Source of the DNA: Actinomycetota bacterium
Lineage (GTDB): Bacteria > Actinomycetota > Acidimicrobiia > Acidimicrobiales > Iamiaceae
NCBI GenBank assembly: GCA_019639075.1
Contig: JAHBSO010000001.1
Span: 62,001 to 126,000, forward strand
DNA length: 64,000 nt
Reading direction: 5' to 3'
The notes beneath the pieces are model-generated. The model did no database searches. It saw only the letters and a program-made list of their open reading frames with translations, and was not told where the DNA came from. The translations under genes were made by a program, and so were the position numbers. Below, piece after piece: positions 2,957 to 64,000 of the stretch (the stretch's first letter is position 1; the number at the start of each line of letters is the position of its first letter).

Positions 2957-3491
2957 TGACGTCCTCGCCGTCCTTCCAGTCGGCCGGGGTGGCCACCGAG
3001 TAGCCGGCGGTCAGCTGGAGCGAGTCGATCACCCTGAGGATCTCGTCGAAGTTCCGCCCGGTCGACGCCGGGTAGGTGAGCGTCAGCTTGATCTTGTTGT
3101 CCGGGCCGATCACGTAAACGGAGCGCACCGTGAGGGTGTCGTTCGCGTTGGGGTGGATGAGGTCGTACAGGTCGGCGAGCTTGCGATCGGGGTCGGCGAT
3201 CAGCGGGAAGTTGAGCGCGTTGCCGGTGACGTCCTCGATGTCGCCGACCCACGCACGGTGCGAGTCGATCGGGTCGACCGACACGCCGATGACCTTCACG
3301 TCGCGCTCGTCGAACTCGGGCTTGAGGCCGGCCACCCGGCCCAGCTCGGTGGTGCACACCGGCGTGAAGTCCTTCGGGTGCGAGAACAGGATCGCCCAGC
3401 TGTCGCCCTTCCAGTCGTAGAAGTTCAGCTCGCCGTCGGTGGTCTCGGCGGTGAAGTCGGGGGCGTCGTCGCCCAGTCGGAGCGTTGCCAT
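2853..3491 (-). CDS. 1-Cys peroxiredoxin (Prx6 family)
   Basis: This 212-residue thiol peroxidase reduces hydrogen peroxide or organic peroxides in the cytoplasm. The peroxidatic motif is complete: T43 and C46 lie in FTPVCTTELG, and a conserved SVDP motif follows near residue 90. There is no second cysteine, and the C-terminal extension is the length expected for the Prx6 (1-Cys) branch. An AGAGGA ribosome binding site lies about six bases before the ATG. The leader carries an inverted repeat (annotated separately) that overlaps the likely promoter. The 3' end overlaps the convergent AAA/TPR frame by 104 bp. Confidence 0.93.
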   Translation of the reverse strand: MATLRLGDDAPDFTAETTDGELNFYDWKGDSWAILFSHPKDFTPVCTTELGRVAGLKPEFDERDVKVIGVSVDPIDSHRAWVGDIEDVTGNALNFPLIADPDRKLADLYDLIHPNANDTLTVRSVYVIGPDNKIKLTLTYPASTGRNFDEILRVIDSLQLTAGYSVATPADWKDGEDVIIAPAVSDEDAKERFPKGWDTKKPYLRYTPQPNR

Positions 3492-62245: not shown

Positions 62246-62941
62246 TCAGCGACCGGCCAGCCAGTTCGGCAGGTCCCTGATCGTCTCGAGCACGTCGACC
62301 GCGCCGTCGTGGTCGACGTGCTCGTGCGCCCAGGTGACGTGGTACGGGACGTGCACGGCGTGGCCGCCGATCTCGAGGACGGGCAGCACGTCGGAGCGCA
62401 CGGAGTTCCCGACCATCGCGAAGCGGTCGGGACCGATGCCCATCGATGCCACCACCCGCCGGTAGGTCGCGGGGTCCTTCTCCGACACGATCTCCATCCG
62501 CTCGAAGTGCCGGGACAGGCCCGAGGCGGCGATCTTGCGCTCCTGGTGGTGCAGGTCGCCCTTGGTGACCAGCAGCAGGCGGAACCCGTCGGCCGTCAGG
62601 GCCGTGAGGGTCTCGTCGACCCCGTCGATCACGTCGACCGGGTGGTCGAGCATCGTGCGTCCGGCGGCGAGGATCTGACCGATCTCCTCGACGCCGATCG
62701 CGCCCTCGGTGATCTCGATCGCCGCCTCGACCATGGAGAGCGTGAACCCCTTGATGCCGTAGCCGTAGCGCTCGAGGTTCCGGTGCTCGACGTCCACGAG
62801 GCGGGCGGCGACGTCCTCGTCGTCGGGGACGTACCGGGCGACGAGCTCGCGGAAGCGGCGCTCGGTCCGCTCGAAGTACACCTCGGAGTGCCAGAGCGTG
62901 TCGTCGGCGTCGAGGGCGACGACCTCGACCGTCGAGCTCAC
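62246..62941 (-). CDS. HAD-superfamily hydrolase
   Basis: This 231-residue protein has DADDTLW (motif I, nucleophile Asp about 11), VTKGDL (motif II, Thr), a Lys in SEKDP and GNSVRSDVLP (motif IV). It is a phosphatase-like HAD. I placed the start at GTG 62941, because that overlaps the stop of the thioesterase (GTGA) like other coupled genes here; GTG 62947 is also possible. Confidence 0.88.
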   Translation of the reverse strand: MSSTVEVVALDADDTLWHSEVYFERTERRFRELVARYVPDDEDVAARLVDVEHRNLERYGYGIKGFTLSMVEAAIEITEGAIGVEEIGQILAAGRTMLDHPVDVIDGVDETLTALTADGFRLLLVTKGDLHHQERKIAASGLSRHFERMEIVSEKDPATYRRVVASMGIGPDRFAMVGNSVRSDVLPVLEIGGHAVHVPYHVTWAHEHVDHDGAVDVLETIRDLPNWLAGR

Positions 62942-63315
62942 CGGCACTTGTCGAGGAACCGCTCCCGGTCGACGACGGCACGCGTGATCTTGCCGGCGGC
63001 CACCAGGCCGCGGCCGTCGTTGACCGACACGGAGAAGACGAGGCGCCGGCCCTCGACCTTCTCGAGCTTGGCGTCGACCTTCACGACGTCGCCGACCGCG
63101 GTGGGGTTGACGTGGTCGAGCTGGACCCGCATGCCCACGGTGGTCTCACCGGCGGCCAGCTTGCCGTCGACGGCCTTCCGGGCCGCCTCCTCGCACAGCG
63201 CGGCGATGCGGGGGGTCGAGAGGACGGCGACGTCACCCGAGCCCATGGCGATCGCCGTGTCGGCGTCGCCGACGACGAGCTCGGTGTGGCCGACGAGGCC
63301 GGGTTCCAACTGCAC
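62938..63315 (-). CDS. Hotdog-fold thioesterase (FlK-like)
   Basis: This 125-residue protein resembles fluoroacetyl-CoA thioesterase-like hotdog proteins: VLSTPRIAALCEEAA (about 31-45), TVGMRVQLDHVNPTAVGD (about 59-76) and a conserved R/E tail. It hydrolyses acyl-CoA or related thioesters. The start is GTG 63315, six bases after the shared divergent -10. Confidence 0.88.
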   Translation of the reverse strand: MQLEPGLVGHTELVVGDADTAIAMGSGDVAVLSTPRIAALCEEAARKAVDGKLAAGETTVGMRVQLDHVNPTAVGDVVKVDAKLEKVEGRRLVFSVSVNDGRGLVAAGKITRAVVDRERFLDKCR

Positions 63316-63320
63316 GTCGT

Positions 63321-63327
63321 TACGATA
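63321..63327. promoter_or_regulatory. Shared divergent -10 (TTACGATAA palindrome) for two leaderless genes
   Basis: The palindrome TTACGATAA (63320-63328) reads TACGAT on the plus strand, nine bases before ATG 63336, and TATCGT on the minus strand, six bases before GTG 63315. The whole intergenic region is 20 bp, so one -10 element appears to serve two opposite, leaderless genes. Confidence 0.6.
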
Positions 63328-63335
63328 AGCCGCCC

Positions 63336-64000
63336 ATGGTGGCCCTGGCGAAGCCGGAGGTCACCGACCCGCACGACCGCGAGAAGGGCCTGCCCGTGAT
63401 CGACGACGCCTTGGTGTCCACCGCACTCGACGCCGCCCTGCGCACGGGTGGTGAGTTCGCGGAGGTCTTCGTGGAGGACCGGCGGTCCTCCTCCGGCCGC
63501 CTCGACGACGGCCGCATCGAGGAGCTCGGCTCGGGCCGGAGCCGGGGTGCCGGGATCCGGGTGGTGTCGGGCGACACCACCGGCTTCGCCCACACGGCCG
63601 ACCTCTCCGAGGCCGGCCTCCTCGCCGCGGCGACGGCCGCGGCGGCCGCGGCCCGCGGGGGCGGCGGCGGGGTCCGCACCGTCGACCTCGACCGCACCGC
63701 CACCAGCCCGCAACCGGTCACCACCCGCCCGGAGGACGTCGCCAAGACCACCAAGGTGGAGCTGCTGCGCCGCGCCGACGAGGCGGCCCGCTCGGCGGGC
63801 GACGCGATCCGGCAGGTCTCCGCGTCCTACGGCGACAGCCGGCGTCGGTTCCTCGTGGCCAACTCCGACGGCCTGCTCACCGGCGACGACCAGACCCGCA
63901 CGCTCTTCGTCGTCGGCGTGGTGGCGTCGGGCGACACCGGGATGCAGACGGGGCGGCGTTCGGTCGGCCACACCATGGGGTTCGAGCTGTTCGACCGCTA
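63336..64000 (+). CDS. tldD: TldD/PmbA family metallopeptidase, 3'-truncated
   Basis: About 221 residues are visible before the window ends. The N-terminal domain matches TldD: FAEVFVEDRRSSSGRLDDGRIEELGSG, then GAGIRVVSGDTTGFAHTADL (about 65-90) and VANSDGLLTGDDQTRT. The zinc-binding region lies beyond the window. TldD/TldE-type proteins process peptides (microcin, CcdA-like) and are common as pairs; a TldE partner may follow. Confidence 0.9.
   Translation, partial: MVALAKPEVTDPHDREKGLPVIDDALVSTALDAALRTGGEFAEVFVEDRRSSSGRLDDGRIEELGSGRSRGAGIRVVSGDTTGFAHTADLSEAGLLAAATAAAAAARGGGGGVRTVDLDRTATSPQPVTTRPEDVAKTTKVELLRRADEAARSAGDAIRQVSASYGDSRRRFLVANSDGLLTGDDQTRTLFVVGVVASGDTGMQTGRRSVGHTMGFELFDR

Follow-up and report, generated by a model that had tools for sequence, protein, structure and literature searches.

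A conserved TANNNTA core as a probable bidirectional promoter of the divergent flk and tldD genes in Acidimicrobiales

Bidirectional promoters are said to have been set out as a class by Warman et al. (Nat Microbiol, 2021). As far as the accessible text of two papers goes, one symmetric -10 element is read both ways in such promoters, which are enriched between divergent genes on the chromosomes of E. coli and Salmonella, and the divergent transcription starts lie 7-25 bp apart, most often 18 (PMC12825309, PMC10268837). At five E. coli bidirectional promoters described there, basal transcription is too low for polymerases to compete, and competition occurs only upon strong activation of one direction (PMC12825309). 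Leaderless genes with a TANNNT -10 have been described in M. tuberculosis (PMC3898074) and in mycobacteria (PMC4633059); in the accessible portions of these sources they appear singly, without two genes on one -10, and they belong to another actinobacterial class. A close case is that of M. tuberculosis prpD (Rv1130) and Rv1129c, divergent neighbours that were both mapped as leaderless in a species in which closely juxtaposed divergent promoters are called common; the available sections do not report the sharing of one -10 for this regulator-target pair, both members of which are induced by starvation (PMC3898074). The word "leaderless" is absent from PMC12825309, and a literature search of partial coverage found no direct precedent for divergent leaderless pairs sharing a -10. 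Bidirectional promoters and leaderless genes are thus each known; what seems new here is deep conservation together with a compact, predicted double-leaderless form.

The locus lies in a 64,000-nt stretch (C1:62001-126000; the window) of a 2.74-Mb, 28-contig metagenome-assembled genome (MAG) of Acidimicrobiales. A 20-bp gap at 63316-63335, GTCGTTACGATAAGCCGCCC, separates GTG 63315 (minus strand) from ATG 63336 (plus strand), i.e., the candidate start codons, 21 bp apart, of two divergent genes encoding a FlK-like thioesterase (flk) and TldD (Table 1). The two -10 hexamers of the original prediction were correctly placed and spelled, and they overlap by 5 bp on opposite strands. The element had also been called palindromic, which holds for its symmetric TA ends and the resulting TANNNT on both strands, and fails for TTACGATAA as a whole, the centre of which, CGA, is non-palindromic; symmetry is confined to TANNNTA, the reverse complement of which is TANNNTA again. 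Overlapping opposite-strand -10s are also what characterizes the Warman-type promoters, and the distance between starts, judged from the start codons, would be exactly 18 bp in one relative (L094, see below). The differences are that the known cases, as far as the accessible sources show, derive from transcript maps, mainly of enterics, whereas the present one derives from sequence comparison, and that here the start codons themselves would mark the inferred +1, in a symmetric arrangement kept order-wide. On the flk side, the -35-like hexamer falls within tldD codons 4-6 if ATG 63336 is the start, and the TTGG-type enrichment at -24 to -21 among orthologs is weak (T-23 0.65, with 17 tree changes at -23). 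In the tldD direction of the core, no -35 is visible.

The two genes had been named as a thioesterase and TldD from their translations, and Pfam domains (PF22636 and PmbA_TldD) bear out both ORFs as real. The flk product scores 105 bits against PF22636 in a profile search (cutoff 27) and is predicted to be a FlK-type thioesterase, for which specificity towards fluoroacetyl-CoA is only putative. Its T34, E42 and H68 are spaced like the Thr-Glu-His triad of FlK. The tldD frame runs past the window edge into the rest of the contig, where it terminates at 64784 (window numbering); it matches PmbA_TldD domains 1 and 2 (PF01523, E 6e-16; PF19290, E 4e-16) and the full ORF carries HEACGHGLE, so that its product is predicted to be a TldD-type metalloprotease. 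A gene for a HAD-family hydrolase likely belongs to the same operon as flk. The flk stop and the hydrolase start overlap by 10 bp (window 62938-62947), and translational coupling is likely.

Table 1. Features of the flk/tldD locus (window coordinates).
Feature	Coordinates	Strand	Basis
TANNNTA core TACGATA	63321..63327		Two overlapping -10 hexamers, one on each strand; sequence, rarity, conservation
flk -10 TATCGT	63322..63327	-	6 nt ahead of GTG 63315; TANNNT at 6-8 nt in 126/133 orthologs
tldD -10 TACGAT	63321..63326	+	9 nt ahead of ATG 63336; sequence
flk -35-like TTCGCC	63347..63352	-	19-bp spacer; weak TTGG-type column enrichment in orthologs
flk, FlK-like hotdog thioesterase, 125 aa	62938..63315	-	Predicted leaderless GTG start; PF22636, E 2e-30
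tldD from ATG 63336	63336..64000, past window edge	+	PF01523/PF19290; first 20 codons score coding
HAD-family hydrolase	62246..62947	-	Start overlaps flk end by 10 bp; PF00702, E 2.5e-15
Shine-Dalgarno-like GAGAAGG	63381..63387	+	Precedes alternative start GTG 63396; same place as relatives' Shine-Dalgarno
Alternative tldD start GTG	63396..63398	+	Aligns with relatives' start codon (VIDEAV...)

The reading that we favor, with a probability of roughly three in four, is that one TANNNTA serves both flk and tldD as a conserved bidirectional promoter of the housekeeping-sigma type. RNA polymerase holoenzyme would bind the core in either of two opposite orientations, and we infer from the sequence that transcription proceeds both ways. 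One orientation, aided by the weak TTGG-type -35, would yield a leaderless flk(-HAD) mRNA starting from or beside GTG 63315; the other would yield a tldD mRNA starting around 63332-63336. Since a -35, and a weak one, is visible on the flk side only, flk would be expected to be the stronger direction. The tldD frame appears to be extended here to ATG 63336, and its mRNA would then probably be leaderless or nearly so (0-4 nt), whereas in most relatives the tldD mRNA would carry a leader, most often of about 40-200 nt and usually with a Shine-Dalgarno sequence. Competition between the flk and tldD outputs, as had been proposed, is possible and would follow from a choice between the two orientations.

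The spacing of both hexamers can be compared with that used elsewhere in this genome, of which 776 kb of the 2.74 Mb were surveyed with a custom gene caller that misses ORFs of <90 aa. TANNNT occurs at 6, 7, 8 and 9 nt before early ATG/GTG codons with frequencies of 28.6, 15.2, 14.0 and 10.1 per 1000, against 0.7, 1.3, 0.5 and 0.1 per 1000 before internal ones, and there is little enrichment at other distances from early starts. Thus, the 6 nt of flk and the 9 nt of tldD fall within the range used here, the latter at its edge. For flk, the placement of the -10 within 6-9 nt of a conserved RTG start leaves no room for a Shine-Dalgarno sequence, and a leaderless flk is predicted to be conserved order-wide, the -10 lying 6-8 nt from the start in 126 of 133 orthologs. 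The original prediction that both genes are leaderless finds support on the flk side; a leaderless tldD would be confined to this lineage at best. Most relatives begin tldD 20 codons downstream (VIDEAV or similar), often after a GAGAGG-type Shine-Dalgarno, and conservation of ATG 63336 breaks down even within the genus. It is possible, though less likely than not, that the window tldD is leadered, being translated from GTG 63396 behind GAGAAGG, with ATG 63336 a chance in-frame codon. This variant of the favored explanation differs from it only in the tldD start; it accounts for the start and Shine-Dalgarno conserved in relatives, and it fits the 9-nt spacing. In mycobacteria, leaderless translation requires the mRNA to open with an RTG (PMC4633059, in its accessible part). 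The leadered variant sits poorly with the coding character of the 20 codons in question, however. Read in frame, 63336-63395 has a GC content by codon position of 0.80/0.40/1.00. Its codon log-odds is 10.3, where the medians are 8.7 for in-frame and near -12 for out-of-frame windows; the stretch thus ranks at the 66th percentile among true coding windows, exceeds 99.5% of the out-of-frame ones and comes first among 76 leaders (itself included; median -7.9). Additionally, a distance of exactly 9 nt from TANNNT to an early start codon recurs at 17 other places in the survey. The high coding score suggests that tldD was probably lengthened in this lineage until it reached the promoter; whereas conservation favors GTG 63396, the coding score favors ATG 63336, which we regard as the somewhat better candidate for the start in use. 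The same score weakens the objection that the start used by relatives, which corresponds to GTG 63396, forbids a leaderless tldD in the window.

Conservation of the shared core was assessed in 133 distinct flk loci, nearly all within the order Acidimicrobiales; the named relatives retrieved with the thioesterase are Acidimicrobiales MAGs. In 92 of the 126 orthologs with a flk -10, the seventh base is A (A7), and TANNNT is hence kept on the tldD strand too. Poor conservation of the palindrome in relatives had been named as grounds for abandoning the idea; the symmetry is instead kept. A divergent tldD start was recognised at 119 loci, and at 17 of them tldD is preceded, at 6-8 nt, by a separate TANNNT. 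A7 is present in none of the 15 loci that have such a tldD -10 of their own in addition to the flk -10, as opposed to 83/97 others, and a Shine-Dalgarno-like motif precedes tldD in 1/17 loci with their own -10, as opposed to 78/102 others. The Fisher p for A7 loss with a separate tldD -10 is 5e-11, a value made unfair by kinship, since the rows with their own -10 are essentially a single clade and one evolutionary event. In the TldD tree, which comprises 116 rows, almost all of those with their own -10 group in one clade of 17, beyond which a separate tldD -10 occurs in two lone rows without a recognisable flk -10, and only 2-3 independent pairs, none of them informative, can be drawn between A7 loss and a separate tldD promoter. 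Outside this clade, A7 is kept in 81/92 rows. Over these 92 rows the tree calls for a minimum of 9 changes at A7; spacer positions between -21 and -2 take 24-42, roughly 35 as a rule, and those between -20 and -2 take 27-42. Among positions unfixed by the search, only G5 (6 changes) and C-1 (9) are as slow. Inside the clade, where most tldD genes have a -10 of their own, all 17 rows have lost A7; the site shows 6 changes between G, C and T, and neighboring positions behave alike. Being slow outside and free inside, the base responsible for the symmetry of the -10 appears to be constrained where tldD depends on the symmetric core, the relaxation having a single origin. Together, ortholog conservation and the tree comparison lend good support to the earlier proposal of one -10 common to both genes. 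Bidirectional promoters are known from transcript maps, and selection on their symmetry for the sake of both products is hard to show. In high-GC genomes nearly devoid of TANNNTA, comparison suffices to read the symmetric base, and the clade in which the flk and tldD promoters became separate constitutes a natural control. The reverse case is represented by three loci (L007, L008 and L026), in which the tldD -10 TACGAT persists and the flk -10 no longer has its TA. In five others (L080, L081, L082, L084 and L086), flk and tldD both have leaderless-type starts, each with its own -10, the two standing back to back within 30-63 bp.

The rarity of the core bears on the remaining alternatives. Among 120 leaderless-type -10s in the 776 kb, base 7 is A in only four, two of which are those of the flk/tldD locus itself (2/118 elsewhere), which rules out TANNNTA as the plain -10 consensus of the lineage. 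It is unlikely that flk alone uses the core -10, A7 being kept for a repressor site or as flk promoter context, and tldD having its promoter elsewhere and its start at GTG 63396. The better geometry of flk, its -35-like element, the unusual conservation of G5 and C-1 in the core and the relatives' tldD start 20 codons further in would all agree with such an arrangement; yet it leaves unaccounted for the atypical A7 and its release within the clade whose tldD gained a -10 of its own, and in L094 there is no space for another tldD promoter outside flk. That the TANNNTA in the gap is a coincidental AT-rich sequence is scarcely credible, for although the motif is short, it has 5 copies in 776 kb (3 of them between divergent genes), i.e., an expectation of about 1e-4 in 20 bp, and order-wide conservation refutes chance.

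Clean examples occur in relatives with still smaller gaps. In L094 (Acidimicrobiales MAG RYN_50), the flk GTG and the ATG of a full 462-aa tldD are 17 bp apart (CCCGGTACGATACGACG), with both starts leaderless-type, each 6 nt from its -10, and TANNNTA exactly central. In L079 (BP_115), flk stands opposite a 613-aa S9-type peptidase (named by eye) across a 16-bp gap with a symmetric -10. At this locus (reverse complement, 3367-3382), the symmetric promoter is retained and the partner tldD is swapped for the peptidase. The pattern CAYN{5,7}TANNNTAN{5,7}RTG is found at 31 sites, spread over 24 genomes of the family; a spacing control with N{12,14} gave 5. This control replaced a reversed-pattern one, set aside because AT...AT, which it counts, is far more frequent than TA...TA. 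Of the 32 matches at these 31 sites, 15 have on both flanks an ORF that is coding by its score and either long or open to the end of the piece; none of the 5 controls does. Among these 15, divergent related membrane proteins of the permease type recur in about eight genomes of the family (L255, L258, L259, L261, L262, L263, L264 and L273). Others of the 15 place an acyl-CoA dehydrogenase opposite an enoyl-CoA hydratase (L270) and an enolase-superfamily enzyme opposite an RpiR-type regulator (L260), all named by eye, across a shared TANNNTA. Whether these cases represent a recurrent Acidimicrobiales architecture we consider evenly balanced: divergent leaderless gene pairs would have both start codons at the +1 of one shared TANNNTA, in a gap of 16-21 bp without untranslated RNA on either side, and flk/tldD would be an order-wide selected bidirectional promoter, the partner gene of which can be swapped or can escape via its own -10. 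Such pairs would be close to the smallest possible two-gene control region, in which the choice of orientation by polymerase could be tested without leader effects.

In the divergent membrane-protein pair, both starts are leaderless-type on one TANNNTA, a second conserved example of the architecture. Additionally, outside the window in the same genome (G000, C1:264223; locus L045), another TANNNTA, TATTCTA, lies between divergent genes in a gap of 49, flanked by an HTH regulator with a leaderless-type GTG at 6 nt and by an Mrp/ApbC-type ATPase.
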